Part shown: piece after piece, positions 7,306 through 57,204 of the stretch | How positions within the stretch are numbered: position 1 is the first letter of the stretch | How the letters are laid out: each line of letters opens with the position of its first letter | From: Akkermansia sp. | GTDB lineage: Bacteria > Verrucomicrobiota > Verrucomicrobiia > Verrucomicrobiales > Akkermansiaceae | Length of the DNA: 64,000 bases | NCBI GenBank assembly: GCA_017549485.1 | Contig: JAFYUT010000076.1 | Location: forward strand, 1 to 64,000 | Direction: 5' to 3' | Made by a program: the position numbers and the translations under genes | The notes under the pieces: generated by a model | Database searches by the model: none | Seen by the model: only the letters and a program-made list of their open reading frames with translations | What the model was told of the DNA's origin: nothing

Positions 7306-9178
7306 ATTGCCGCCTTTGTTGGCACGGCTTCGCGAGGGTGAGAATTTGAAAAATCTCACCGCAGAAGAATTGGTGCAGTTGGCCGATGAAATCCGCCATT
7401 ATTTGGTGGAGACGCTCTCCATAACCGGTGGTCACTTAGCACCGAATCTGGGTATTGTAGAGCTTTGCATCGCCATGCATCGCGTCTTGTCTACCCCGGT
7501 GGATAAGATTCTCTTTGATGTTTCGCATCAATGCTACGTACACAAGATTTTGACCGGTCGCTCTGCTGAAATGAGCGGTATTCGCCAGTTCGGCGGGATT
7601 TCCGGTTTCTGCAAACGCAGCGAGTCTGAGCATGATGCGTACGGGGCAGGGCACGCCGGTACGGCCCTTTCTGCCGCGTTGGGTATGGCTGTAGCCCGCG
7701 ATTTGGCGGGGGAGGATTACCATGTGGCCGCTGTGGTGGGTGATGGTGCGTTTACTTGCGGCACAACACTTGAAGCCCTCAACAACATAGCCTCCCATAC
7801 ACGTAAGTTTATCCTTGTGCTGAATGATAATGAGTGGAGTATTGATAAGAATGTAGGTGCTCTTGCTCGTTATTTTGCCTCGTTGCAAGAGACCTCTGCA
7901 TACACGTGGTTGAGGGATAAATCCATCAAGTTTATCGAGGGACTTGCCGGCAAGAGCATGAGAGACCAAGCCTCTAAACTGGTGACGGCGGCTCGCGCCG
8001 TGATTAACCCGCTGAGCTTTTTCAGAGAAATGGGGCTCAATTATTATGGCCCTATCGATGGCCATGATATAGCCCGCTTGGAAAAAGTGCTTCGCATTGC
8101 TACACGCCAGAATGAACCGGTGGTGCTGCATATCATTACGCAGAAAGGTAAGGGATATGCCCCGGCAGCTCAGAACCCCACCAAGTTCCATGGGGTAGGC
8201 CAGTATAATGTGACGGACGGCTCAACGAAAGCATCATCCCGCCTTACCTATTCCGAGGTGTTCGGTACTGTGCTTTCCCGCTTGGCTGCAGATGACCCTG
8301 CTGTAACTGCCATTACGGCTGCAATGCCCAGTGGTACCAAGTTGGATATCTTCCGCAATCAGTTCCCCAAGCGATTCTTTGATGTAGGTATCGCGGAAGA
8401 ACATGCCGCTCTGTTCGCATGCGGGCAGGCTACCCAAGGGTTGAAACCGTATGTGGCCATTTATTCTACTTTCATGCAGCGTGCTGTGGATATGATTCAC
8501 CACGATGCAGCCTTGCAGAAGTTGCCGGTAAGATTTTGTATGGACCGCGCCGGGTTGTCGCCTGATGACGGCCCCACCCACCACGGCCTTTACGACATCA
8601 GTATGCTGCGTTGTATACCCGACCTCATTATGATGCAACCCGCAGATGAGGCTGAGTTTGCCCACATGCTGGCCACCATGAATGAGATTAACGATTGCCC
8701 CAGTGCCATTCGCTATCCTCGTGGGTGCGGTGAAGGCGTGGAGCTGCCGGAAACGCCCACACCGTTGCCGGTCGGTAAAGCTGAGGTGCGTGCAGATGGC
8801 GCAGAGGTTGCCTTAGTAGCGCTGGGTAACATGAATGCTGTTGCTGCCGTTGTGCGTGAGTCTCTGCTGGCTGCCGGTGTGGACTGTGCTCACATCAACG
8901 CCCGTTTCATTAAACCCCTGGATGAGGAGTGTTTGCTGGGCTTTGCCCGCAAGTGTAAATTGATAGTAACTCTCGAAGACCATACCGTTGTCGGAGGTTT
9001 CGGCAGTGCTGTACAAGAGCTTTTGTCTGACCACGGGGGCTCTACTCAAGTATTGCCCATCGGGTGGCCGGATGAATTCGTTGAGCACGGTACGCTTGAA
9101 TTGCTGCGCGCTAAACATGGGCTTACGCCGGAAAATATCACTTCTCGAATCCTTCACAAACTTAACGGAAATATATGA
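7286..9178 (+). CDS. dxs: 1-deoxy-D-xylulose-5-phosphate synthase
   Basis: Encodes 630 residues. DXS condenses pyruvate and glyceraldehyde-3-phosphate with ThDP, the first step of the non-mevalonate isoprenoid pathway. Visible signatures are GGHLAPNLGIVEL, DVSHQCYVHKILTGR, the ThDP motif GDGAFTCGTTLEALNN, the central DVGIAEEHAALFACG, and the C-terminal transketolase-like RFIKPLD. Two usually conserved spots differ from the common form: DVSHQ instead of DVGHQ, and FTCGT where most enzymes have a Gly/Met-rich stretch. The start overlaps xseB and the stop overlaps the next gene (ATGA), so it sits within an operon. Confidence 0.92.
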   Translation: MTSPSSKLPPLLARLREGENLKNLTAEELVQLADEIRHYLVETLSITGGHLAPNLGIVELCIAMHRVLSTPVDKILFDVSHQCYVHKILTGRSAEMSGIRQFGGISGFCKRSESEHDAYGAGHAGTALSAALGMAVARDLAGEDYHVAAVVGDGAFTCGTTLEALNNIASHTRKFILVLNDNEWSIDKNVGALARYFASLQETSAYTWLRDKSIKFIEGLAGKSMRDQASKLVTAARAVINPLSFFREMGLNYYGPIDGHDIARLEKVLRIATRQNEPVVLHIITQKGKGYAPAAQNPTKFHGVGQYNVTDGSTKASSRLTYSEVFGTVLSRLAADDPAVTAITAAMPSGTKLDIFRNQFPKRFFDVGIAEEHAALFACGQATQGLKPYVAIYSTFMQRAVDMIHHDAALQKLPVRFCMDRAGLSPDDGPTHHGLYDISMLRCIPDLIMMQPADEAEFAHMLATMNEINDCPSAIRYPRGCGEGVELPETPTPLPVGKAEVRADGAEVALVALGNMNAVAAVVRESLLAAGVDCAHINARFIKPLDEECLLGFARKCKLIVTLEDHTVVGGFGSAVQELLSDHGGSTQVLPIGWPDEFVEHGTLELLRAKHGLTPENITSRILHKLNGNI

Positions 9179-39159: not shown

Positions 39160-40257
39160 TCAGATACGCAGCGGGGTATCATCGCCGAAGGAGATGCCGA
39201 TTTCCTTGGCTTCTGCCACCAGCTGGCTTTCACCGTCTACCAAGTGTAGCGTGCGTACAGCTTCTTCAATGGGCATGGATACCATGTCATTGCGGCGCAG
39301 GGCAACGGTTTCCCCGAACTTGCCTTGCTCAACGAGCTCTACGGCCTTGGCGCCGCAGCGTACACCCAGCACGCGGTCGAACGGGATGGGAGAACCACCG
39401 CGCTGTACATGGCCGAGCACGCAGTAGCGAGTCTCGATGCCGGTGATGGTTTCAAGCTTGGTGGAGAGGAAAGAGGCAATGCCGCCCAAGCGAACCTCGC
39501 CCTTGGTCTCTTCGTCCAGCGTGAGCAGTTTACCGCCGATTTTTGCACCCTCAGACACCACGATAATGATTTCGCGCTGGCCGAGAGCCTTCATCAGCTC
39601 TACCTTCTTGACGATTTCTTCAAGCTTGAACTCAATCTCGGGGATGAGGATAACGTCTGCACCGCCGGCAATACCGCCGTACAGGGCAATCCAGCCGGCG
39701 TGGCGGCCCATTACCTCTACCACCATCATGCGCTTGTGGCTGTCAGCCGTGGTGCGCAGGCGGTCCAAGTTGTCGCTAACCACGGATACAGCCGTCCAGA
39801 AACCGAAAGTGTAGTCCGTAGCGCCTAAGTCATTATCAATGGTCTTAGGCACGCCCACAATGGGCAGCCCGATGGCACGCAACTCGTTACCGATGGTCTG
39901 AGAGCCGTCGCCACCCACCACGATGAGGGCTTTGAGGCCGAGCCGCTCTACGGTAGCCTTACTTTGAGCCAACACTTCATCTGCAATCTGCATGCGGCCA
40001 CCCACACCGCTCTTCACGGTGAAGTTACCCTTGTTAACAGTGCCGAGAATGGTGCCGCCCATGGAGCGGATGTTGTGGCAGTTTTCGGGGGTAAGCTCGC
40101 GCCAACGCTCGTTATCGGGCGTGGAGAGCAACCCCTCAAAGCCATCATAGAAGCCGATGACCTTCCAGCCACGTGCGGCTGCGGCGCCTACGGCACCTTC
40201 AATCACGGCGTTAAGTCCGGGGCAGTCGCCACCGGCGTTGAGAATTCCGATATTCAT
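39160..40257 (-). CDS. pfkA: 6-phosphofructokinase, catalytically intact paralogue
   Basis: Encodes 365 residues. It phosphorylates fructose-6-phosphate to fructose-1,6-bisphosphate. Nucleotide-site GGDGS has the metal-binding D117; PKTIDND has the catalytic base D141; VEVMGRHAG has the F6P-contacting R185; ETRYCVLGHVQRGG is intact. Gly after D117 together with Lys at 138 is the pattern of ATP-dependent group III enzymes rather than the pyrophosphate type (which has Asp there), an inference to be tested. The ATG at 40257 opens MNIGILNAGGDCPG. It is the last gene of the nanA operon, 13 bp after the S11-like gene. Confidence 0.92.
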   Translation of the reverse strand: MNIGILNAGGDCPGLNAVIEGAVGAAAARGWKVIGFYDGFEGLLSTPDNERWRELTPENCHNIRSMGGTILGTVNKGNFTVKSGVGGRMQIADEVLAQSKATVERLGLKALIVVGGDGSQTIGNELRAIGLPIVGVPKTIDNDLGATDYTFGFWTAVSVVSDNLDRLRTTADSHKRMMVVEVMGRHAGWIALYGGIAGGADVILIPEIEFKLEEIVKKVELMKALGQREIIIVVSEGAKIGGKLLTLDEETKGEVRLGGIASFLSTKLETITGIETRYCVLGHVQRGGSPIPFDRVLGVRCGAKAVELVEQGKFGETVALRRNDMVSMPIEEAVRTLHLVDGESQLVAEAKEIGISFGDDTPLRI

Positions 40258-40270
40258 GATGTGAAAAAAG

Positions 40271-41239
40271 TTAGTTTTTAGGCAGGCGAATAAACTTGGA
40301 GGGATCAGAGGTGTCACTGGAGGTTTGCCAGATTTCCCATGCTTCCCAGCCGTCTTTCAAGAGGGCTGCGGCCTTATTGTTGCGCGTATCGGCAGTGGGC
40401 ATGCCCAGCACAATGACGAGAAGACGCTGTGCATAGGTGGATTGTCTGCCGAGGGTGGGGTTGTATGCTTTGACACTGCCGCGTTTGGCAGAGGCCATGA
40501 TGCAGTACCCGGCTGAGCCGGAGCCTGCGGAGCGAATGCCGTCCACACCTTGGCTTGTAAGCAAGCGGTTGGTGTTGGTAATCTGCACGGGGCGGGTGCC
40601 CATGGCGTTGGTTACGTTGGCAGTATAGTCCGTTTTGGAGCAGATGGTCTGCACCTGCGGACGCTCAATGGCGTATATACCCAGCAGCACCATGTCTCGG
40701 GCGGTGGAGGTAGAGCGCACGGCTCCGTTCACGCCTTTGAACGTGGTTTGCTTCATGCCGATAGCTTCGGCCAGCTTGTTCATCTGGATGAGGAATGCCC
40801 CCTCGGGATCCTGCGGGCTGAGCTTGTAACCGCATGCCCAGGCAAGAGCCGTGGCGGCGGCACTGTCATCCCACATCAGGGTGGAGTGCAGGGCATCTCT
40901 CAGGCTGATGCGGTCTCCGGGGCGCAGCTGCATCATGTTAGATGCAGGCCAACGGCAGGCAGCCTGCGGTACGGTCAGCATGGTGTCCATACTCAGGTTC
41001 TCGGATTTCATCCAGTCCAACACCACCAGTGCGGTGGCAATGTTGGCCAGCATGCCGATGGGGCGGCGCTCGTTGGCGTTTTCAGAGAAGAGTACGCGCT
41101 CGTTGTTTGTTTCAACAACGATATAGCTCGGCGACATTTCTGCGGCCGTTTTTGGGGGGAATATCTGGCTGCAGGCTCCCAGCATCACTGCGGTTCCTGC
41201 GCACAGCATACCTTTAATCCTGTTTATCGCTTTATTCAT
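40271..41239 (-). CDS. S11 (D-Ala-D-Ala carboxypeptidase-like) lipoprotein lacking all catalytic motifs
   Basis: Encodes 322 residues. The lipoprotein signal ends in MLGAC at residue 23. The fold is that of penicillin-binding-protein-type D,D-carboxypeptidases: YIVVETNNERVLFSENANERR, RPGDRISLRDALHSTLMWDDS, GVNGAVRSTSTARDMVLLG and GSAGYCIMASAKRG. But the three active-site motifs are altered: SxxK reads M63-L-A-N66, SxN reads M122-W-D124, and KTG reads R236-S-A238. It should not hydrolyse peptidoglycan; binding or structural roles are possible. Its start overlaps the stop of the upstream degenerate pfk gene by four bases (ATGA), so it is translationally coupled inside a sugar-catabolic operon. 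Confidence 0.85.
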   Translation of the reverse strand: MNKAINRIKGMLCAGTAVMLGACSQIFPPKTAAEMSPSYIVVETNNERVLFSENANERRPIGMLANIATALVVLDWMKSENLSMDTMLTVPQAACRWPASNMMQLRPGDRISLRDALHSTLMWDDSAAATALAWACGYKLSPQDPEGAFLIQMNKLAEAIGMKQTTFKGVNGAVRSTSTARDMVLLGIYAIERPQVQTICSKTDYTANVTNAMGTRPVQITNTNRLLTSQGVDGIRSAGSGSAGYCIMASAKRGSVKAYNPTLGRQSTYAQRLLVIVLGMPTADTRNNKAAALLKDGWEAWEIWQTSSDTSDPSKFIRLPKN

Positions 41240-42390
41240 TTCTTACTTTTGGTCTTGCAGCCTTTCGGGGTGGCTTTGCAGGCTTTCGGGGCCATTTCCT
41301 CAGGTGTGAGGTCACCGAAAATGATACCCAACTCACGGGCCGTTTGTACGGTGTGATTATCGAGGGTGATGGTGCGGGGCTCGGCAATGGCCTCGGCAAT
41401 GGGTACACTGTCCACATTGTGACCATTAAGCACCATGGTGCGACCGAACTGCTTCTCTTCAATGAGTTTTACCGCTTCAACACCGAATCGAATGCCCAAA
41501 ATGCGGTCAAACGGGCAGGGACTGCCACCACGTTGGGTGTGGCCCAATACGCAATAGCGCGTTTCAATGCCGGTCATTTCTTCCAGCATCTTGGAGAGTC
41601 GGTTACCGATACCGCCGAGTCGCTCATCACCGTTTTCTTTGTTGCGCACGGTGACCAGCTTGCCGTTCAGACGACAACCCTCAGCCACAACAACGATGAT
41701 TTCACGCTGCCCCTTGGCTTTCTTGGCCTTGATGCACTCTACCACTTTTTCCAAATCGAACTCGATTTCGGGGATGAGTACAACATCTGCCGCAGAGGAG
41801 ATACCACTGTGCAGGGCAATCCAGCCGGATTGGTCACCCATCACCTCTACTACCATCATGCGCTGGTGGGCGTTGGCCGTAGTGCGGATGCGGTCTATGC
41901 TTTCAGATACCACCGATACCGCGCTCTGGAAACCGAAGGTATAGTCAGAGGCCGGGCACAGGTCATTGTTGATGGTTTTGGGGATGGAAATCACCGGCAG
42001 ACCTTCATCGGAGAGGAGGCTGGCTGTGCGGGCCGAGCCGTTACCGCCGATAACGGCAAGGGCTTCCAACCCCAGAGCGGTGATTGTCTTGGTTGCTTTG
42101 GCCATAATCTCGGGCTCCACGCGGGCACGGCCGAGCTTATTGATATTGACCTTGAAATTGCCCGTGTTGGTGGTGCCCAAAATGGTGCCACCGTGGGAGC
42201 GAATCTTGTGAGTCTTGTAGGGGGTGAGCATTTCGTAGCGGCGACCACCGGCTACGGGCAGCAATCCTTCAAAACCATCATGGAAGCCGATTACGCGCCA
42301 GCCGCGTCGATACGCGGCTGAAACGTAACCTTCAATGACGGCATTGATGCCGGGGCAGTCGCCACCGGAATTGAGTATGCCTATAATCAT
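41236..42390 (-). CDS. Degenerate phosphofructokinase paralogue (predicted inactive)
   Basis: Encodes 384 residues and aligns throughout with the intact PFK at 39160-40257 (ILNSGGDCPGINAVIEGYVS; TILGTTNTGNF; IETRYCVLGHTQRGGSPCP). Key residues are changed: GGDGS becomes GGNGS (N117, the metal ligand), PKTIDND becomes PKTINND (N141, the catalytic base), and the MGR motif becomes MGD (D186). The fold and sugar-binding ETR and GH-QRGG motifs are kept, so it may be a regulatory or structural partner of the active PFK. The C-terminus adds a Lys/Cys-rich tail (KACKATPKGCKTKSKK). It follows the epimerase gene by 26 bp. Confidence 0.88.
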   Translation of the reverse strand: MIIGILNSGGDCPGINAVIEGYVSAAYRRGWRVIGFHDGFEGLLPVAGGRRYEMLTPYKTHKIRSHGGTILGTTNTGNFKVNINKLGRARVEPEIMAKATKTITALGLEALAVIGGNGSARTASLLSDEGLPVISIPKTINNDLCPASDYTFGFQSAVSVVSESIDRIRTTANAHQRMMVVEVMGDQSGWIALHSGISSAADVVLIPEIEFDLEKVVECIKAKKAKGQREIIVVVAEGCRLNGKLVTVRNKENGDERLGGIGNRLSKMLEEMTGIETRYCVLGHTQRGGSPCPFDRILGIRFGVEAVKLIEEKQFGRTMVLNGHNVDSVPIAEAIAEPRTITLDNHTVQTARELGIIFGDLTPEEMAPKACKATPKGCKTKSKK

Positions 42391-43628: not shown

Positions 43629-44555
43629 TTATTTGTAGATAGCCCAATCGTAGAAGCCGATTGCCTTCAGCTCGCTCTTGAGAGCCTCAAGGGTGGCTTT
43701 ATCTTGCTTGCCCATGGGCAGACGAGCCGGGCCGAAGTCAACGCCGGTCCACTCGCTCATCAGGTACTTGCAGCAACCCATGTAGCCCTTGCCGGCAATG
43801 ATGTTAATCATGGTGACGGAGAGCTGCTGCAGGCGGCGGGCCTCGGCAAGATCCCCGGCGTCAACGGCCTTCATGATGTCATCATACAGCTTCGGGGCGT
43901 AGTTGAAGGAGGAACCTACACCGCCCTTGGCGCCTGTGGCGTATGCGCCCAAGAACCACTCGTCAACACCCCAGGGAATGTCGTACTTGCCACCCTCGTA
44001 GTTGAGGGCATCCATGTACAGAGCAAGGTCCGGATTGGTGAACTTGACACCCACGAAGTTGGGAATCTTCTTGGCGCATGCCTCAATTACCTTGCAGGGG
44101 TTGAAGCCTACGTGGGTCAGCACGGGGATGTCATAGAAGGAGTAGGGCAGCTCCGGTGCGCCGGAGGCCTCCACAGCCAAGCTGTCTACCAGCAGGTCAA
44201 TGTTACCCGGCTTGAAGTAGCAGGGGGCATTGCTGGCGGTTGCGGTGGCACCGCACTGGGCAGCGTAAGCAGCCAGTTCGCGGCCGTCATACACGCAGTT
44301 GCCACCGGTGTGTACAACTACATCGATGCCGTACTTCTTGCCGGCTTCGCCCCAAGCGGCCATGTTCTCCTTACGCTCGGTCAGCTGCATGTGGGCAGAT
44401 TCACCCGTAGAACCGGTGATGAATACTGACTTAATGCCCTGAGAAGCAAGGAACTTAGCCTGAGCGTCCACTGCGTTGGGGTTGCAGCTGCCGTCGGCGT
44501 TCATCGGTGTGTGTGTAGCGGCGCAAAGGCCGTGGATTTTGAATGTAGTGTTCAT
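43629..44555 (-). CDS. nanA: N-acetylneuraminate lyase
   Basis: Encodes 308 residues of the DHDPS/NAL (beta/alpha)8 family. It splits N-acetylneuraminate into N-acetylmannosamine and pyruvate through a Schiff base. Seen: FITGSTGESAHMQLTERKE, the Tyr of YSFYDIPVLTHVGFNP, the Schiff-base Lys in FVGVKFTNPDLALYM, and GAKGGVGSSFN. The adjacent AGE epimerase supports lyase rather than dihydrodipicolinate synthase. It is first in an apparent five-gene operon ending with pfkA. Sialic acid use fits a mucin-associated gut bacterium. Confidence 0.92.
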   Translation of the reverse strand: MNTTFKIHGLCAATHTPMNADGSCNPNAVDAQAKFLASQGIKSVFITGSTGESAHMQLTERKENMAAWGEAGKKYGIDVVVHTGGNCVYDGRELAAYAAQCGATATASNAPCYFKPGNIDLLVDSLAVEASGAPELPYSFYDIPVLTHVGFNPCKVIEACAKKIPNFVGVKFTNPDLALYMDALNYEGGKYDIPWGVDEWFLGAYATGAKGGVGSSFNYAPKLYDDIMKAVDAGDLAEARRLQQLSVTMINIIAGKGYMGCCKYLMSEWTGVDFGPARLPMGKQDKATLEALKSELKAIGFYDWAIYK

Positions 44556-44590
44556 AGTAAGATGTACGGGGTAAATTTTTCCCTACCACT

Positions 44591-44619
44591 TTTTTACTCT
44601 ATTTTTCGTCAGTTTTCAA
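44591..44619 (-). promoter_or_regulatory. Possible promoter of the nanA operon
   Basis: On the minus strand TTGAAA (44614-44619), a 17-bp spacer, and TAAAAA (44591-44596, four of six consensus bases), leaving a leader of about 30 bases. The weak -10 box would fit a regulated promoter. Confidence 0.4.
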
Positions 44620-44716
44620 GATAAAACTGTGATTACTGCTGACTTTTATGGGAAATTGGGGTGTTTTGAGGTCGAGGGCCGTTTTTTGACTTTTACCTTG
44701 ACATGATACGGCCTGA

Positions 44717-44744
44717 TTGATAGAGTTGGGGGAACTGCTATAAC
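44717..44744 (+). promoter_or_regulatory. Sigma-70 promoter of the helicase-TerB pair
   Basis: TTGATA (44717-44722), a 16-bp spacer, and TATAAC (44739-44744). The -10 box ends nine bases before the helicase ATG, so the leader is about 3 bases. Confidence 0.65.
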
Positions 44745-44753
44745 TGACGTGCC

Positions 44754-47700
44754 ATGAGTGCAACAAGCCCCGAAAACTCTCCATCTGCGGTAAATTTGCG
44801 TATATCCTGCTACCGCTATTCATCATTGGTGTATTTGCGTAATTCTCGTCCTGTGCTGTGGGATATGGAGCTGAGCGCGGCTCAAGAATTGCGCGATATT
44901 CGTATCGTGGTGAAACATGAACCCGATTTTGCCGAAGATACCGAGTGGCATGTGGGGGTGTTGCCGGCGGGTAAAGTATACCACCGCCATGGCGAGTGTC
45001 CGCAGTTTGATGATGCACGCCTGTCCGCGCTGCAAGATGATGTGCCCGGCCGCATTACCGTGCAGGTGCTGGCGGAGGATGGTACGGTTTTGGCGCAAGC
45101 CGGGGATGATTTCAAGTGGCTGGCCTATAATCGCTGGGCCGGTGGGCATGAATACCCGGAGTTGTTGGCCGCCCTCACACTGCCATACGACCCCGCCGTG
45201 GATAATGTGCTGGAGGATGTAAAGAAGGCCGCCGGTGCAGCAGAGGTATGGCCCGGTTATACGGAGGATGCCGAGGGGGTGACCCGCCGCCTGACCTCCC
45301 TGTGGGACACTTTGGCTTCTTATCGTTTGGAGTATGCCTTGCCACCCAAGAGCTGGCTGGATGATAATGTGGGGCAAAAGGTGCGCACGCCCTCCGAGAT
45401 TATGGAAAAACGCTGCTGCACGTGTCTGGATTCAGCCTTGCTGTTTGCCGCCTGCACAGCGCGCATGGGCTACAACCCGTTTTTGGTGCTCATCAGCGGG
45501 CATGCGTTTTTAGGCGTGCAGTTGCAAGATGCGTTTTTGCCTCACCCGCAGGGTACGCCGGTGTCTACGGTGCGCAACCTGATGTGCCAAAACAAGTTGC
45601 TGGTGTTTGAGTGCACCAATGTGAATGGAGATGCCTCCACCCCGCGTAAATCTTTTGAGCATGCCTGTGCCGTGGGTGTCTTTGAGCTGAATGCATTGGG
45701 GGATTCAGACTATTTCTATGCGCTGGATATTTGCCAGCTGTGGGAACAGGTGGGGATTCGCCCCATCATCGGCGGTGCTACGGAGCCTCGCAAACATGTG
45801 AACCGTGAGGAACAGGAAATTGTCTCTGCTCGCCCGCGCACGCGCATGGAGAATTGGCAGCTCAAGCTGCTGGACCTCTCCCTGCGTAATCCTCTGCTCA
45901 ATACCCCGCTCAAGGGGAAAAATCAGCTCAATTTGCTCCAGCCGGATGTTTCCGCGTTGGAGGATATGTTGGCCGGGGGCCTCTCTTTCCGTGTCAAAGT
46001 GGTGCCGCAAACGTTCTGGAATCTTACCTCACAAGTGCAACATGGTGAGGATTCTGACCTGATGCGCCTACAGTTGGCGGAGTGTGTGCGCTCCATGTTC
46101 TCTAAGCGAGAACTGGCTGTTAACATGCCGGATTCTCACCTCTCCAAGCAAATGGTGCACCTGTATAACACCGCTCGCCGTGAAATGGAAGAAAGCGGTG
46201 CCAACACCCTTTACATTGCCTGTGGCTTCCTCAAGTGGTATCGCAAAGGGAGCAATCTCAATGATAAAGCATATCTTGCCCCGTTGTTGCTTTTGCCAGT
46301 GCGCCTTACCCGGCCCTCGGTAAAAGCGGGCTTTGTGTTGCGCGGTACGGATGAAGAATCCCGCATGAACATGACTCTGCTGGAGCTGCTCAAAACGGAG
46401 TTCGGGGTGCGTTTGCCCGAGCTTGAGGGGGATTTGCCCACCGATGCCTCAGGAGTAGATGTTGACCGTATTTTCAATATCGTGCGCGCGGCAATCAGTA
46501 ATATGCCCGGTTGGGAGGTGATTGAGGGGTGCTCACTGGGTGTGTTTTCGTTTACGAAATATCTGATGTGGAAGGACCTCTCTGACCGTGAGGAGTTCCT
46601 TATGCGTAACCCCATTGTGCGCCAAATTGCTGCCGAGCAACGCTCCTCTTTCCCGGTGCAGGTGGGATTCCCTGACCCCGCTACGCTTGATAATGACGTG
46701 GAGGCTGACCAGGTGTATACCCCCATGTCCAGCGATTCCTCTCAGCTTTCTGCCGTGTTGGCGGCGGCCCGTGGTAAGAATTTCGTGCTTATCGGGCCTC
46801 CCGGCACGGGCAAGAGCCAAACGATTACCAACATGATTGCCCACTGCTTGGGCCATGGTAAAACCGTGCTCTTCGTGGCCGAAAAAGCTGCCGCTTTGCA
46901 GGTGGTGCATAAGCGTCTTAAGCGTATTGGGCTTGAAGATTTCTGCTTGGAGCTCCACTCCAACAAGGCTAACAAGAAAAACGTGCTGGCTCAGTTTAAA
47001 TCCGCAGTAGAGGCGGTGAGCGAGGGCTCTGCCGATGATTCGTGGGCGCAATCGGCCTATTCTCTGGCATCTTTGCGGTATAAGCTCAATATGCTGCCGT
47101 GGGAGCTGCACCGCAAGCATGATGAAGGGTCCTCTCTTTACGATGATGTGCGGAATATGGAGCAATTTGCTCATTTGCCGGCTTTTGTTCCCATGGCTGA
47201 TGATTTGTTGACTTGCACGGCAGAACGCCGCCAAGCGATGGAGTCTGCGGCACACCTGCTTTCCCGTCATTATTCGCTGCTGGAGGGGGTGCCGACCCCG
47301 TGTGTGCAGGCTATTCGCTTTAAAGATTACAGCCTGAACCGCGAGGAAAAATTGGCAGAGGCTCTTGCGGCGTATGCCGCGGTGGATGCAGCAAGAGAGT
47401 CCTTGTACCTGCGCCTGATGGAACAGTTGGGGATGGATGCCGACTCCCACCGCGCAGCAATGCCTGCCTTGCTTCCGGCGCTGCAATTTGCCGCATCCTC
47501 CGGCGGGGATGATTGGTCTTTCCTGTTGCCATCCCGCGCTGCCGCTACCATGCAAAAACTCAAGACGTTGCAGCAACAAGTGGCTTTGTATCAGCAGAAT
47601 AAGGCCGGGCTCACCCTTCCGTACCCCGATTCGGCACTTGATAACCCCATGCTCGATACATGGCTGGGCGAAACCAAAATGCTTTACGTCTCGTGGTTCT

Positions 47701-50477
47701 TGCCCCGTTTCTTCGGCATGATGCGCATGCGCAAAAACTTGCGCGCATTAGCGGTGAGCCGCGCCACCCCGGATTGCCTGAAAGACTTGACCGCTTTGGT
47801 GGCCATGAGAGAGGCTCGCAAGGCTGCGGCGGCGGTTGTCGGGTTGCCCGAGCATCTGCATAAGGGGCTGGATTACTCCCCGGCAGATGCCGAGTCTGTC
47901 AACACGGCTGCGATGGCACTGAAAGATGTCTTGCCCGTGGATGAGCCGGTGCTGGAGCGTCTCTTGCAGCGGGGCTCGGTGTTGCAGTTGCCCGGTTCTC
48001 CTGCTCGCGAAACGTTGGCCGCTTATGCTGAAAAATCCACCCTGTGGCAGCAATGCCGTGCCTCTTTAGCAGAGTTATTGGGGGGTGAGCTTGCAGATAT
48101 TCCCCAAGGGTGTGAGACTCAAACTTGGTGTAAGTCTCTTATGGAGGCCCGCCGTAACTGGCGTGATATTGTGATTTGGAACTCCTGCCGCGCCACGGCA
48201 GAGGCAGACGGCTTTGCGCCTCTGGCAGAGGCGTTGCTGAGCGGTAGTGTAGCTGCGGCTGATTTAGAGAATGCGGCGCGTGTCAACTTCTCCCGCCGCC
48301 GTATTCGTGCCGTGGTGGAATCTGAGGAAGCTTTGCGCAATTTCAGCCCCGCAATTCATGAGGGTACCATCAGCGATTTTGCAGAGCAAGATGCCCGCCT
48401 CATGAAACTGGCTACCACGCATATTCGAGGCTCTCTTATCAAGCGTGCGGCAGATATCTCTAAGTTCGGCACTGAAACCGCCGTGCTGCAACGCGAAATC
48501 TCTAAACAGAAAGCGCACATGCCGTTGCGCAAGCTCATGGGCAGTGTGCCCAATATCACGCGCTTGCTTAAGCCGTGTATGTTGATGAGCCCGCTCTCCG
48601 TAGCGCAATATCTTGATGCCTCTACCGAGCTGTTCGATGTGGTTATTTTTGACGAGGCTTCACAGATTCCTGTGTGGGATGCCATAGGTGCCATTGGTCG
48701 CGGGCGCAATGCCATCATTGTGGGCGACCCCCGCCAAATGCCGCCCACCAGCTTCTTCAACCGTGCTCAACAGCAAGAGGAGGATTGCGAGCAAGAGCAG
48801 GATATGGAAAGTATTCTCGATGAATGTCTCGCCTGCGATATCCCCTCGCTCAATCTCTCTTGGCACTACCGCAGTAAGGCTGAGAGTCTCATAGCTTTCT
48901 CCAACGCCAATTATTACGAGAGCAAGCTCACCACGTTCCCCGCCCCCATGGCACAGGATTGCGCCGTACGCTATCATTACACCGCCGGTACGTATGAGCC
49001 CGGCAGCAGCAAGCGCATCAACATGCGAGAGGCTCAGGCTTTGGTTAACCATGTGCTGGAGCAACTGCGGGCAGATGGGTTCCGATATACAGAGGCCAGC
49101 AGTATCGGTATAGTTACGTTCAATGCCCAGCAGCAAGCCCTCATTCAAGAATTGTTGGATGAAGCCCGCGCCGCAGATGAATCGCTGGAGCCTTACTTCT
49201 CGGAGTCCAACCCTGAGGCCGTTTTCGTCAAAAATTTGGAAAACGTGCAGGGTGATGAGCGCGGGGTTATCTACTTCTCTACCACCTACGGGCCGGATGC
49301 CCGCGGTTCTGTATCCATGAACTTCGGCCCGCTTAATTTAGCCGGTGGTGAGCGCCGCCTTAATGTGGCTGTAACCCGTGCCCGTTGTGCGTTGCACGTC
49401 TTTACGTCTCTTAAGCCTGAGGATATTGACCTGAACCGCACCAAGGCTCGCGGTGCGGCTGATTTCCGTGCTTTCTTGGATTACGCGCGCCGTGGTGCCG
49501 CCTCCTATCTGCGCTTGCAACAGGGTGGGGCTGCGGCAGGTGCCGATGCGCTGGCCGAGGCTATTGCAGCTGAGCTGCAGGGGCTGGGTTGGCAATGCAC
49601 CCGTAGTGTGGGTGTGTCGGATTACAAGGTAGACCTCGCTGTGCTGCACCCCGAGCGCGAGGGCGAACTGCTGGCCGGTATTGCGATAGACGGCGAGTCT
49701 TATGCTGCGGCCAATACGGCCCGTGATCGCGATGTGTTGCGTAACTCCGTGCTCACTTCTCTGGGGTGGCGTATGCTGCGTGTGTGGGCGCTGGATTGGT
49801 GGCAAGACCGCGAGCGCGCCCTGCAAAATCTGCATGCCGCTCTCAAACAATGTGTGGAAATGGGCCCCGTGCAGCCGCCTGAGTTGCCGGAGCTGACGGC
49901 TCAGGCCGGCCCCGCCGGTGCCACAGAACCGGAGCCCGAGCCGGAGCCTAAGCCCGTGGCAGAGCTTCCGCCTCTTCTCGGGGAGCCCGGCAAAGAGTAT
50001 ACCCCCTCGTCTACATTGCCCCCGTTGTTTGAAATGACTGATGCCGGGTTGCGCTCCGCCATTCATTCTGTGGTAGAGGTGGAGGGCCCCATGAAATTGA
50101 GCTTCCTTTGCAAACGCTTGAGAGATATCTCATTCTCGCCCGCGGTTACCCCCACTCTCCGCAGCCGTATCATGGGCATGGTGGGCGAGCTTGCTGCCCG
50201 CGGTAAACTGGTGTCTGCGCCCGAAAGTGATGATGCCGTATTGCGTTTGCCAACGCAGGCCGAGGCTATGCCCCGTGCTTGCGGTAACCGCAGTTGGGGA
50301 GATATACCGGCTGCCGAGTTACTCGCCATTGCAGACCTGGTTCACGCCCACCTCAAGTGCATTGCCGGTACAGATGAGCACCTGCGTGGTATTGCCACTT
50401 ATCTCGGCGTTTCTCGTGTCACCCGCCCCTTCAAAGACCACCTCACGGCGCTTCTGCAAGAGCGTAATGCTTCTTAA
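44754..50477 (+). CDS. Giant DUF4011-type SF1 helicase with MTES_1575-like nuclease and DUF3320-like domain, 1907 aa
   Basis: Encodes 1907 residues. In order: an N-terminal beta-rich region (1-190); a transglutaminase-like domain with a possible C224/H250/E286 triad; a DUF4011-like region (LKLLDLSLRNPLLN); an SF1 (UPF1/DNA2-like) helicase with Walker A GPPGTGKS (681-688), Walker B DEASQ (1300-1304), GDPRQMPP (about 1324) and VAVTRAR; between Walker A and B a 610-residue helical insert; a Vsr/MTES_1575-like PD-(D/E)xK domain (about 1600-1690, DYKVDLAV, GIAIDGESY, RDRDVLR, LGWRMLRVWALDWW); a Pro/Glu hinge; and a C-terminal DUF3320-like domain. This architecture suggests a DNA-processing or anti-phage enzyme. 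Domain names are by resemblance. Confidence 0.85.
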   Translation: MSATSPENSPSAVNLRISCYRYSSLVYLRNSRPVLWDMELSAAQELRDIRIVVKHEPDFAEDTEWHVGVLPAGKVYHRHGECPQFDDARLSALQDDVPGRITVQVLAEDGTVLAQAGDDFKWLAYNRWAGGHEYPELLAALTLPYDPAVDNVLEDVKKAAGAAEVWPGYTEDAEGVTRRLTSLWDTLASYRLEYALPPKSWLDDNVGQKVRTPSEIMEKRCCTCLDSALLFAACTARMGYNPFLVLISGHAFLGVQLQDAFLPHPQGTPVSTVRNLMCQNKLLVFECTNVNGDASTPRKSFEHACAVGVFELNALGDSDYFYALDICQLWEQVGIRPIIGGATEPRKHVNREEQEIVSARPRTRMENWQLKLLDLSLRNPLLNTPLKGKNQLNLLQPDVSALEDMLAGGLSFRVKVVPQTFWNLTSQVQHGEDSDLMRLQLAECVRSMFSKRELAVNMPDSHLSKQMVHLYNTARREMEESGANTLYIACGFLKWYRKGSNLNDKAYLAPLLLLPVRLTRPSVKAGFVLRGTDEESRMNMTLLELLKTEFGVRLPELEGDLPTDASGVDVDRIFNIVRAAISNMPGWEVIEGCSLGVFSFTKYLMWKDLSDREEFLMRNPIVRQIAAEQRSSFPVQVGFPDPATLDNDVEADQVYTPMSSDSSQLSAVLAAARGKNFVLIGPPGTGKSQTITNMIAHCLGHGKTVLFVAEKAAALQVVHKRLKRIGLEDFCLELHSNKANKKNVLAQFKSAVEAVSEGSADDSWAQSAYSLASLRYKLNMLPWELHRKHDEGSSLYDDVRNMEQFAHLPAFVPMADDLLTCTAERRQAMESAAHLLSRHYSLLEGVPTPCVQAIRFKDYSLNREEKLAEALAAYAAVDAARESLYLRLMEQLGMDADSHRAAMPALLPALQFAASSGGDDWSFLLPSRAAATMQKLKTLQQQVALYQQNKAGLTLPYPDSALDNPMLDTWLGETKMLYVSWFLPRFFGMMRMRKNLRALAVSRATPDCLKDLTALVAMREARKAAAAVVGLPEHLHKGLDYSPADAESVNTAAMALKDVLPVDEPVLERLLQRGSVLQLPGSPARETLAAYAEKSTLWQQCRASLAELLGGELADIPQGCETQTWCKSLMEARRNWRDIVIWNSCRATAEADGFAPLAEALLSGSVAAADLENAARVNFSRRRIRAVVESEEALRNFSPAIHEGTISDFAEQDARLMKLATTHIRGSLIKRAADISKFGTETAVLQREISKQKAHMPLRKLMGSVPNITRLLKPCMLMSPLSVAQYLDASTELFDVVIFDEASQIPVWDAIGAIGRGRNAIIVGDPRQMPPTSFFNRAQQQEEDCEQEQDMESILDECLACDIPSLNLSWHYRSKAESLIAFSNANYYESKLTTFPAPMAQDCAVRYHYTAGTYEPGSSKRINMREAQALVNHVLEQLRADGFRYTEASSIGIVTFNAQQQALIQELLDEARAADESLEPYFSESNPEAVFVKNLENVQGDERGVIYFSTTYGPDARGSVSMNFGPLNLAGGERRLNVAVTRARCALHVFTSLKPEDIDLNRTKARGAADFRAFLDYARRGAASYLRLQQGGAAAGADALAEAIAAELQGLGWQCTRSVGVSDYKVDLAVLHPEREGELLAGIAIDGESYAAANTARDRDVLRNSVLTSLGWRMLRVWALDWWQDRERALQNLHAALKQCVEMGPVQPPELPELTAQAGPAGATEPEPEPEPKPVAELPPLLGEPGKEYTPSSTLPPLFEMTDAGLRSAIHSVVEVEGPMKLSFLCKRLRDISFSPAVTPTLRSRIMGMVGELAARGKLVSAPESDDAVLRLPTQAEAMPRACGNRSWGDIPAAELLAIADLVHAHLKCIAGTDEHLRGIATYLGVSRVTRPFKDHLTALLQERNAS

Positions 50478-50495
50478 CCTCCTGCTTTCAATAAG

Positions 50496-51518
50496 ATGAA
50501 GTTCTCATCTGCACATCAACAATATCTGCGTTCGTTTTTGCGCTATGCCTCGCAATGCATGGCTAATGTGTTGGGGGGTACAGAGGAGCAAATGTGTACC
50601 TATCTGGAATCTGACCTGATGGATTTTCTGTTTCATCTGGCCATAAAGGATGGGGATGTGCCTTTGCCCACACGCACCGCTATTGCAGATTTTTTTGGTT
50701 ACACCTTTACACCTCAACAATGGAATGACCATAAACTGACGCATGAGATTCCGTGTTCTGCCATGGTGAGCCGCGTGCCGTACTCATACGCCCTCTTGCT
50801 GCAAGCCGAGAATACAAGCCCTTTTGAGGGTGGTACCAAGTCATTTGTTGAGGCTGCCGACAGCTTGAGCCGCTTGTTGGCAACCGGTGCGGCGGGTGTT
50901 GCTCTATTAGCCAATCGCCGTAACGCCTATCTGAATATGCTTTGCGATTACGCGGCGGCTCAACTCAAAAAATCGTGGTCATCCCGTGTACTCGCCAATC
51001 GTGTGCAAGAGGACAAGGTAGATGCCTCCCGCTTCTTCGGTTTTGCTCCTTCTCCTCGCGTGGTTAGCAGCTTGCGCGATTCTATCGAGGCGTTGGTGCG
51101 CTGTGGTAAGCGCGCCTGCCCCCAAGCCCCGCCCATGTCGGAGCAGGATTTGCGTGCTGCGCTGCGTCAATTGTGGACCCGCTTGGCCGCGGCCGATGGC
51201 CCCATTAACGCCGCAGAGGCATTGTGTATACGTGAATACCTTAAATGTCATGTGGAGTCTCTGTATTTAACGCATGCGCTCAAGAAAGAATCTGCCGGTT
51301 CATTGCCTCCGGCGGTTCGTAAAGTGTTGGATGCTTTGCGCAAGATGGGGGATACCGATTACGACACGGCTGCTGATATGGCTCATATTTTTATTGACCT
51401 GTATGATGGCGCAGCACCGCTCATTTTGCAGGCCGATTCCCCCACGAACGCTCGCGAAGAACAGGCATGCGCCACCCTGCGCCACGCTATCATTGCCTAC
51501 CTTGAGGCCGATGCGTAA
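50496..51518 (+). CDS. TerB-like protein, partner of the giant helicase
   Basis: Encodes 340 residues, no signal or membrane segment. Two helical modules resemble the TerB/TerB-N fold: LMDFLFHLAIKDGDVPLPTR near residue 45 and LWTRLAAADGPINAAEALCI near residue 230, each with the acidic D-G-x-(I/V) turn followed by helix-initiating residues. A middle stretch carries Arg/Cys-rich helices. It begins 18 bp after the helicase stop, with no promoter between, so the two form a two-gene transcript. TerB-type domains occur in stress-response and phage-defence gene sets; the role here is unknown. Confidence 0.7.
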   Translation: MKFSSAHQQYLRSFLRYASQCMANVLGGTEEQMCTYLESDLMDFLFHLAIKDGDVPLPTRTAIADFFGYTFTPQQWNDHKLTHEIPCSAMVSRVPYSYALLLQAENTSPFEGGTKSFVEAADSLSRLLATGAAGVALLANRRNAYLNMLCDYAAAQLKKSWSSRVLANRVQEDKVDASRFFGFAPSPRVVSSLRDSIEALVRCGKRACPQAPPMSEQDLRAALRQLWTRLAAADGPINAAEALCIREYLKCHVESLYLTHALKKESAGSLPPAVRKVLDALRKMGDTDYDTAADMAHIFIDLYDGAAPLILQADSPTNAREEQACATLRHAIIAYLEADA

Positions 51519-51650
51519 GCCGGTATACTTGCCGGCTCACGCCCGGGCTGCAAATATGTAAACCCTGCGAAAAAAACGCCTACGGGGGCTTCTATCTGCG
51601 AAATTGATGGGAAAAATACTTATATTTCGTGTAAAACACCTGTTTTATGA

Positions 51651-51679
51651 TTGCAGGGGCAGGGGAGATGTGCTAGAAT
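51651..51679 (+). promoter_or_regulatory. Sigma-70 promoter of kdsD
   Basis: TTGCAG (51651-51656), a 17-bp spacer, and TAGAAT (51674-51679), leaving a leader of about 30 bases. Confidence 0.65.
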
Positions 51680-51715
51680 CAGCAGCGAGTAAAAATTTAC
51701 CATTAACTTACGGCT

Positions 51716-55391: not shown

Positions 55392-55647
55392 GCTTCGAAA
55401 GGCTGTCGCTCGCCATCACCCCCCAAAAAAAATGGCAATTTTCGGGGCACCGGATTTCAAAAATCTCTAATTGTTCCTTCTTCGTGGCTTTTTTATTGTT
55501 ATTATGGAGAAATGTGTTCTTTTAGCTTGAGCTCTCATTCAAAAAAAGTTAGTCTTAAGTGTTCATTCGAATCGGCTTTTTTTCTTTTCCTGCATCTCTT
55601 TGCCCGAAAAAAAAGGAGAGCCGCGAAAAATCAAATTCAATCATATC

Positions 55648-57204
55648 ATGAAATTACATTTAAATAAGGCTCTTATGGCCGTAGTGCTCGGGGCTTCTGT
55701 TCAGGTGGCTAGCGCTGATGTCCTCCTCCAGACGCCCGGCGTAGTTGTGGAAGATGGAAATCTTTCCGGCGCTTTGTCCGGAACATACACCGGTCCCATT
55801 GTTGTTGATAGTGATGCCTCTCTTTCCGGTACACACACTACCAAGTCCCGTTTGGATGTTCGTGAAGGTACCGTGACCATAGGGGGAACATTCTCCAATG
55901 AAGGTGGTCTTCAGGTTTCCGGTAATGGTGCTACATTGAATGTTACAAATGGCACGGTTAATGTGAAAGGTGGGCTTGGTACTGTTCAGATTGGCGGTTG
56001 TGATGGCTCCGGTTCCCTTAATTTGCAGAATTCTACCCTTGATGCTAGCGTATCCTTGAGTGCCGGTTTTCACAAAGGTGCAGATTGGGCCCAGTATCTT
56101 ACAGCTACCCGAGATTCGGCTGATGCTTCGTCTTCCCGTTATAACGATGGCTCTTATGTTAAGGTAGATTACGCTAATCGCGAGTATGGTAAGGCCACTA
56201 TCAATTTGGATAATTCTACTGCTAATTTCCGTTCTGCTATTTTCTTGGCTGAAGCGGATATGACGCTTAAGAATGGCTCCGTTGTTCTTTCCGGTTCCAA
56301 TGTTGATCCCTTTGCCCACACGATTGAGGAAAAAGCAACAGGTGAGTATAAAGACCCCACTGATGAACGAGAAATCAATGGATATCACATTTTGGGCCGT
56401 CAGAGTGGGTCTACCACGAATGTTTCCATTCAGAGCAACAGTAAGATGTTGTTGGAAGGTACTTTGTTTGTGGGTTCCACCGGTGCTGCTGAAATTGCCG
56501 CTAACATTACGGTTGACGGTCAGGGGTCAACTTTGGAAACCTCTCAGGGTATTGCTTTCGGCTACGGCCATGTTTCCGATACGGAAGCTGGAGGTACGTC
56601 TGTAACAACCGTACAATTGACCAACGGTGGCTCCATGGTGTCTGACACCATCTTGTTCGGTGTGCAGGTAGCCGAGTCTAAGGGGCTTCATACTGTTGAT
56701 GTAGATGTTGAATCCGCCGCTTCTATCACAGCCAAGGACATCGTTATCAGCAATGGCGCTGATGTTACGGTTCAAGGTGGCTCGTTGGCATTCAGCACGC
56801 TTACCATGAATGGCGGTGCATTGACATTGGATGATGCCGCCATGTTGACCATTAACGTAACCGAAGCTGCTGGCACTGCCATAACGCTGGACGGTGATGC
56901 TGCTAAGCTTGACTTTGCTGCCAATACCATCAAGCTTGTATTTGATGAGTTGTTGTCTGTTGCTAACCCGAGCGTACAGCTGACGTGGGAGCTGATTAGC
57001 GGAATCGGTGAAAACGATGACGTCAATCTTGATGGCCTCAAGATTTTGTCCGGTACGGATTACGTTTCTCTCTCCAACGTGAAAGTAGAGGAGACTGATG
57101 GCAAGGTAGTTCTGACTGCTACCGCCTCCATCCCCGAGCCGACCACGGCAACCCTGAGCCTGCTTGCTCTGGCTGCATTGGCTGCACGTCGTCGCCGTAA
57201 GTAA
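55648..57204 (+). CDS. PEP-CTERM surface protein, autotransporter-like beta-helix
   Basis: Encodes 518 residues. The signal peptide is MKLHLNKALMAVVLGASVQV (cleavage near ASA-DV). The mature part is Gly/Thr/Ser/Asn-rich with short repeating beta units (GTVTIGGTFSNEGGLQVSG; GKATINLDNSTANF; DVTVQGGSLAF), typical of a right-handed beta-helix as in pectate-lyase-like or autotransporter passengers. The C-terminus is a PEP-CTERM tail: IPEPTTATLSLLALAALAA followed by RRRRK, recognised by exosortase. No exosortase is in this window. The start at 55648 opens the signal peptide. A terminator follows. Confidence 0.88.
   Translation: MKLHLNKALMAVVLGASVQVASADVLLQTPGVVVEDGNLSGALSGTYTGPIVVDSDASLSGTHTTKSRLDVREGTVTIGGTFSNEGGLQVSGNGATLNVTNGTVNVKGGLGTVQIGGCDGSGSLNLQNSTLDASVSLSAGFHKGADWAQYLTATRDSADASSSRYNDGSYVKVDYANREYGKATINLDNSTANFRSAIFLAEADMTLKNGSVVLSGSNVDPFAHTIEEKATGEYKDPTDEREINGYHILGRQSGSTTNVSIQSNSKMLLEGTLFVGSTGAAEIAANITVDGQGSTLETSQGIAFGYGHVSDTEAGGTSVTTVQLTNGGSMVSDTILFGVQVAESKGLHTVDVDVESAASITAKDIVISNGADVTVQGGSLAFSTLTMNGGALTLDDAAMLTINVTEAAGTAITLDGDAAKLDFAANTIKLVFDELLSVANPSVQLTWELISGIGENDDVNLDGLKILSGTDYVSLSNVKVEETDGKVVLTATASIPEPTTATLSLLALAALAARRRRK

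Follow-up and report, generated by a model that had tools for sequence, protein, structure and literature searches.

The question raised by this locus is whether two adjoining genes of an Akkermansia sp. form a phage-defence system together or whether the first of them is an anti-phage gene in its own right. The DNA analysed (the window) comprised 64 000 nucleotides (GenBank assembly GCA_017549485.1, contig JAFYUT010000076.1, positions 1 to 64 000 of the forward strand). Gene A (44754..50477, + strand) encodes a protein of 1907 amino acids with helicase and nuclease-like domains. It is followed after 18 bp, on the same strand, by gene B (50496..51518), which encodes a TerB-like protein of 340 amino acids. 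Coordinates, lengths and spacing are exactly those given in a preliminary description of the DNA, in which the two genes were presented as a candidate defence or genome-maintenance pair. The reading adopted here, with a probability of about 0.6, is that gene A encodes a solitary anti-phage protein of the ProA family, with its own promoter, carried as an accessory insertion in the gap between nanA and kdsD, and that gene B is optional.

Gene A was compared with curated profiles. The NCBIfam model NF058533 ('anti-phage protein ProA') matched residues 29-1888 over profile positions 6-1903 of 1903, with a score of 1668.3 bits for a cut-off of 1500. The PADLOC model PDC-S37 (PDLC05009) matched over positions 8-1533 of 1550 with 1111.6 bits (no cut-off is printed by the tool). 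The NF058533 cut-off was passed by seven of the nine relatives scanned (from Akkermansia, a Lachnospiraceae and a Bacteroidaceae metagenome-assembled genome, Paenibacillus and Pseudomonas) and by two plasmid-borne copies; the loci L004 (1477 bits) and L020 (1426 bits) were slightly under it. Gene A shares with ProA the domain order and a full-length match above the curated cut-off. It differs in an altered nuclease motif and in its TerB-like neighbour, and its score is lower than those of nine other passing proteins scanned (1684-2372). Judged by its sequence, gene A is a member of an already named anti-phage family and not a protein of a new kind. The locus is a ProA variant with an altered nuclease site and an optional TerB neighbour, and not a new two-gene system. 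The defence role proposed in the preliminary description agrees with this full-length membership. The publication behind the name 'ProA' was not found in a literature search.

Two other groups of large helicase proteins were considered. Membership of Hhe (NCBIfam NF042953) was rejected, as gene A scored 739 bits for a cut-off of 2000; the relatedness to Hhe (PADLOC PDLC02194) lies in DUF4011, the helicase and the nuclease, with the best stretch at residues 1138-1699 of gene A. In 2023, Sather et al. reportedly presented Hhe as a predicted helicase/nuclease conferring phage resistance via abortive infection. Giant proteins of the MTES_1575 type, with HEPN, transglutaminase, superfamily 1 (SF1) helicase, Vsr and winged helix-turn-helix (wHTH) domains, were described in 2013, and in the part of that paper available to us the wHTH is proposed to recognize invading DNA, with RNase action and protein cleavage as further lines of defence (Anantharaman et al., 2013; PMC3710099). 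As far as that part describes them, they have in common with gene A a chain of transglutaminase-like peptidase, SF1 helicase, Vsr-type nuclease and DUF3320/wHTH tail (PMC3710099). The domain of Vsr-type restriction endonuclease (REase) fold that marks this type is present in gene A (PF18741, 90.4 bits for a cut-off of 38.2). Gene A differs from the giants so described in its altered nuclease motif and in that no HEPN was seen: HEPN families were absent from the 25 best Pfam matches listed, a scan that could miss a remote HEPN.

In the window, ProA lies between a nanA-like gene (43629-44555) on the left and kdsD (51716 on) on the right. The edges of the insertion site fall in the regions upstream of the nanA-like gene (44556..44697) and of kdsD (51519..51715), the gene-proximal part of each resembling genomes in which the site is empty. 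A predicted sigma-70-like promoter (TTGACA-17-TAGAGT; 44698..44726, + strand) was found 5' of gene A by a pattern search of the upstream DNA, and similar promoter-like sites were found 5' of ProA in the genomes G006, G042 and G002. For each of nanA and kdsD, 76 genomes of the genus were searched, and both genes were close together on one contig in 14. The gap was empty (179-252 bp) in 11 of these, held ProA in two (the window and G006) and held other genes in one (G058). In G002 and G042, ProA has the same flanks, although contig breaks interrupt the stretch. The 11 empty sites mark the cassette as an accessory insertion, which is what a role in defence would lead one to expect. The gap of G002 (L047, 8127-11866) also contains propeller-like and unknown genes after a TerB-AAA+ gene, so it acts as a small accessory hotspot.

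A ProA match was found in 57 of the 97 relatives searched and in 31 of 59 genomes of the genus Akkermansia, window included (32 if G041, dropped for weak fragment matches, is counted). The copies stand at many different locations within the genus, where the close relatives of gene A are also placed. A core gene of the genus was rejected on the basis of these 31 carriers among 59 and of the 11 empty sites; of the earlier concern that gene A might be a core gene lacking TerB linkage, only the lack of linkage held, and for most copies. Synonymous divergence (dS) between the window and G006 was 2.4 for ProA, against 0.53 for nanA and 0.54 for kdsD; between the window and G002 it was 1.19 for ProA and 0.55 for kdsD. 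The ratio of non-synonymous to synonymous divergence (dN/dS) of ProA was about 0.1. The higher dS of ProA and this low ratio therefore indicate purifying selection and a history unlike that of the flanks, as would be the case for a gene that is under selection and is swapped at one fixed position. Plasmid records with ProA relatives numbered 407; 219 were predicted to be conjugative, and 244 were from Klebsiella. E. coli genomes gave no match at the DNA level to the ProA copies of Pluralibacter or Klebsiella. The locus is a clean natural example of how a single large anti-phage gene comes to occupy a fixed gap in the chromosome of a common gut genus.

The linkage of TerB to ProA was then assessed. 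Six matches to gene B were obtained in the same 97 genomes, and they adjoined ProA only in the window and in G002, where a TerB-AAA+ gene starts 8 bp after ProA. The ProA of G042 is 98.9% identical to that of G002 (1563 codons), yet no TerB gene precedes kdsD; this ProA is split over two contigs, of which C94 continues into unrelated sequence, and an insertion or an assembly error is possible. No TerB gene follows ProA in G006. A TerB-N profile made from seven Akkermansia sequences, which a distant TerB gene could escape, gave no match at E 0.1 among 1186 open reading frames (ORFs) around 86 ProA-family loci (genomes and viral contigs). The neighbour listings of relatives showed no common partner next to ProA. 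Between the window and G002, non-synonymous difference (pN) was 0.34 for gene B, whose synonymous sites are saturated, and 0.11 for gene A. Because a TerB neighbour is rare at ProA loci and gene B is far more diverged than gene A, gene B is regarded as an add-on. A fixed two-gene cassette was rejected, and the pair proposed earlier was given up, since only two Akkermansia loci showed a TerB neighbour and none was observed elsewhere, even beside a nearly identical ProA.

These same data make it unlikely that genes A and B are a real two-protein defence system of this lineage, in which the TerB protein would be the sensor or activator of gene A, even though their shared strand and short spacing, the equivalent TerB-AAA+ gene close behind ProA in G002 and the occurrence of TerB-like proteins in the Shango anti-phage system would suit it. 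Shango is given, in the portion of the source at hand, as a TerB-like protein, an ATPase and a DEAD/DEAH box helicase (PMC10250203). Compared with that account, the likeness here is that a TerB-like protein adjoins a helicase and that the wider TerB family in this genus includes AAA+ ATPases; the differences are two genes instead of three, an SF1 DUF4011 helicase instead of a DEAD/DEAH one and a TerB neighbour that is not conserved. In the PADLOC scan gene B had no match, and no match of gene A was named Shango (the library was not checked for Shango models). The locus cautions against counting neighbouring TerB genes as parts of a system.

The domains of gene A, all on the + strand, were located by Pfam profiles and by a structure model of residues 1-363 (mean predicted local distance difference test score, pLDDT, 89). 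An N-terminal beta-sandwich (about residues 11-124; 44784..45125) is followed by a transglutaminase/PNGase-like domain (residues 129-336; 45138..45761), for which the sequence match is weak (PF04473, E 0.045, under the cut-off) and which is supported by fold alignment. Peptide:N-glycanase (PNGase) is a transglutaminase-fold enzyme, and modelled residues 129-336 aligned with yeast PNGase 3esw at Z 9.0 (155 residues aligned, root mean square deviation 4.4). In whole-model searches the beta-sandwich (pLDDT about 95) dominated the Foldseek matches, PNGase 2f4o being at rank 44 (E 1e-3); with VIA-align, the PNGases 3esw and 1x3w were at ranks 43 and 45, and the best match of the beta-sandwich (Z 10.8) was protein 4.2 of the ankyrin complex. 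A viral library gave nothing useful. The predicted catalytic residues are C224 (45423..45425), H250 (45501..45503) and E286 (45609..45611). The modelled fold and the presence of a Cys, a His and an acidic residue support a transglutaminase-like Cys-His-Asp/Glu enzyme, with catalysis predicted.

Next comes DUF4011 (residues 371-546; 45864..46391; PF13195, 141.8 bits for a cut-off of 22). The helicase motor is split into AAA_11 (residues 660-732; 46731..46949; PF13086), with Walker A residue K687, and AAA_12 (residues 1353-1551; 48810..49406; PF13087, 62 bits). Walker B is formed by D1300-E1301 (48651..48656), K687 and D1300 lying 613 residues apart, and the long variable insert between the Walker motifs (residues 733-1299; 46950..48650) consists mostly of poorly conserved columns and had no listed Pfam domain at the cut-off. 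The MTES_1575 (Vsr-type) nuclease-like domain covers residues 1602-1697 (49557..49844). A DUF3320-like, winged-helix tail (residues 1759-1791; 50028..50126) scored 17.4 bits with PF11784, below the cut-off of 25. The domain set given in the preliminary description was recovered by Pfam and the structure model, the transglutaminase being weak by sequence and the tail only DUF3320-like.

Conservation was examined in an alignment of 108 ProA-family proteins (25 from Akkermansia, four from the same order and 79 others). Of the 86 loci, 79 were used in the tree and the residue counts; those dropped were L075-L078 and L144 (Akkermansia, taken as duplicates of genus genomes), L095 (no main ORF) and L151 (split ORF). 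In addition, L028 was dropped as too short, and L027 and L085, the same in the tree columns, were both retained. None of the 108 proteins departs from K687, D1300 or E1301. The C224/H250/E286 site proposed earlier is conserved, the triad being complete in 88 of the 108 (Akkermansia 16/25, same order 3/4, others 69/79). The nuclease motif D1627-E1644-D1646-H1651, at positions where Vsr presumably also has the residues that it uses, is complete in 51 of 83 relatives outside Akkermansia (same order 4/4, others 47/79), among them the Pseudomonas copy at L083, and in none of the 25 Akkermansia proteins; three rows (one Akkermansia, two others) do not cover it, and all the Akkermansia sequences that do have an altered form. 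In the window it reads D1627-A1644-D1646-A1651-D1658, and with E1644 and H1651, two of four residues conserved elsewhere, both replaced by A, the ordinary active nuclease assumed at the outset is not supported. The triad is kept with an altered nuclease motif in 40 sequences, and the nuclease motif is kept without a full triad in six. On a FastTree tree of the DUF4011 and helicase columns (trait columns left out; some branches long), change of the nuclease motif required two events and loss of the triad seven. The two nuclease-altered clades, each with 100% local support, contain 31 rows, mostly from gut anaerobes, and the 25 Akkermansia rows. The family's two candidate weapons are separated at this locus, the protease-like site being kept more often than the nuclease motif. 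Three Akkermansia ProA proteins (L020, L022 and L024), in which D1627 is replaced by S, are devoid of most of the N-terminal part with the beta-sandwich and the transglutaminase-like domain.

From the domains we infer how DNA sensing, activation and the choice of effector might proceed. The DUF4011/SF1 motor and winged-helix tail would load on foreign or aberrant DNA and translocate along it, and ATP-driven movement would release an effector in the same chain. For most relatives, the Vsr-type nuclease and the Cys-His-Glu protease-like domain are both candidates for this effector, singly or together. Where Akkermansia copies retain the triad, as in the window, the protease-like domain may be the better candidate, because their nuclease motif is altered and their triad complete. 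Gene B may tune or localize the response and would not be needed for the function of the family. A bolder proposal, which is held only tentatively and is rather doubtful, is that in Akkermansia and the second clade ProA independently lost ordinary nuclease chemistry and would now be an enzyme that cleaves or cross-links proteins when activated by DNA: invading DNA would be sensed by the SF1 motor, which would switch on the N-terminal Cys-His-Glu domain to attack a protein of the phage or the host. On this view, some Akkermansia copies would have gone on to lose both sites and would act through the motor alone. The 2013 idea of protein cleavage as a defence in giant proteins becomes directly testable at this locus.

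It is possible, though not favoured, that the nuclease has kept its activity by means of a shifted catalytic set (D1627, D1646 and T1655-R1657-D1658-R1659 being kept), so that gene A would cut phage DNA as assumed for Hhe-type proteins and the transglutaminase-like domain would be structural or regulatory. D1646, D1658 and R1659 are invariant in the Akkermansia copies covering them, PF18741 matches gene A strongly, and the six relatives with a DEDH motif and an absent or changed triad are consistent with this possibility. The replacement of E1644 and/or H1651 throughout the clades of 31 and 25 rows, in two independent events, and the 40 sequences with the opposite pattern argue against it.

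For gene A as a solitary defence protein, several observations count on the other side. The 'anti-phage' label comes from the name of an NCBI model. Gene B has an open frame that starts 18 bp beyond gene A, an arrangement suggestive of co-expression, and it may matter in this strain. In nine of the 25 Akkermansia copies the triad is incomplete (six changed, three truncated) and the nuclease motif altered too; neither effector is therefore indispensable there, and this weakens the protease reading. G006, at the same nanA-kdsD site, has GYE as triad and an altered nuclease motif. Defence genes were few near the relatives, the top PADLOC matches shown being mad2 (three) and methyltransferase models (two members each), in a scan, with no control set, that covered 110 of the 139 large ORFs picked and 57 of the 72 loci that these came from. 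The neighbours of gene A in the window are housekeeping genes, which, with the purifying selection, would suit a host DNA-repair or genome-maintenance enzyme rather than defence. Such a role is nevertheless very improbable, given that gene A is missing from about half of the genomes of the genus, varies in location, leaves empty sites, is carried on plasmids and matches the NCBI anti-phage family.

Gene B is related to the N-terminal part of TerB-AAA+ fusions. It is 51% identical to that part of a 626-amino acid protein of G002, which consists of a TerB part and an AAA+ ATPase with AAA_lid_6 (CbbX/SpoVK-like), a fusion shared by the related full-length TerB proteins found elsewhere in the genus. 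In alignments with the fusions, gene B ends where they enter the linker that leads to AAA+, and it is without AAA+ and AAA_lid_6. No AAA+ remnant was found 3' of gene B by tblastn of the AAA+ part of G002 against window DNA from 50401, the matches being at chance level (best E 1.1). Derivation from a TerB-AAA+ protein, with gene B as an optional accessory, is the best explanation. The score of gene B with TerB PF05099 was 14.6 bits, short of the gathering cut-off of 24.4. Two TerB-like modules, as described earlier, are plausible from the sequence, and neither reaches that cut-off: the first (about residues 39-68; 50610..50699, + strand) was mapped from the homologue L048 (E 5.7e-5, 23.8 bits) and the second (residues 215-247; 51138..51236, + strand) had E 0.04. 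The single-sequence structure model of gene B was poor (pLDDT 43, all helix). A second TerB-AAA+ gene of G002 (L053, 6088-7188, contig C126) looks broken, its frame being lost where AAA+ begins. Other TerB-AAA+ genes of the genus lie about 15 bp after a small membrane-like protein of about 200 amino acids, possibly as a conserved pair (L050, 6792-7421 with 7436-9052; L052; L053).

ORFs around the relatives were called mechanically, and some neighbour rows are spurious; downstream views were shortened at contig ends (L006; L003, completed with L055). In some proteobacteria, ProA is followed 3' by what we take, from sequence, to be a SIR2-like protein (L147) or DUF2130-like proteins (L102, L150). 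To the left of the locus in the window, two presumed phosphofructokinase-like genes (39160-40317 and 41236-42390, - strand) stand close together with a penicillin-binding-protein-like gene between them, and this pair adjoins what appear from their sequences to be an epimerase-like gene and the nanA-like gene. To the right, positions 55600-57204 (+ strand) encode a surface protein of PEP-CTERM-like type that is rich in repeats and has a typical sorting tail at its C-terminus.

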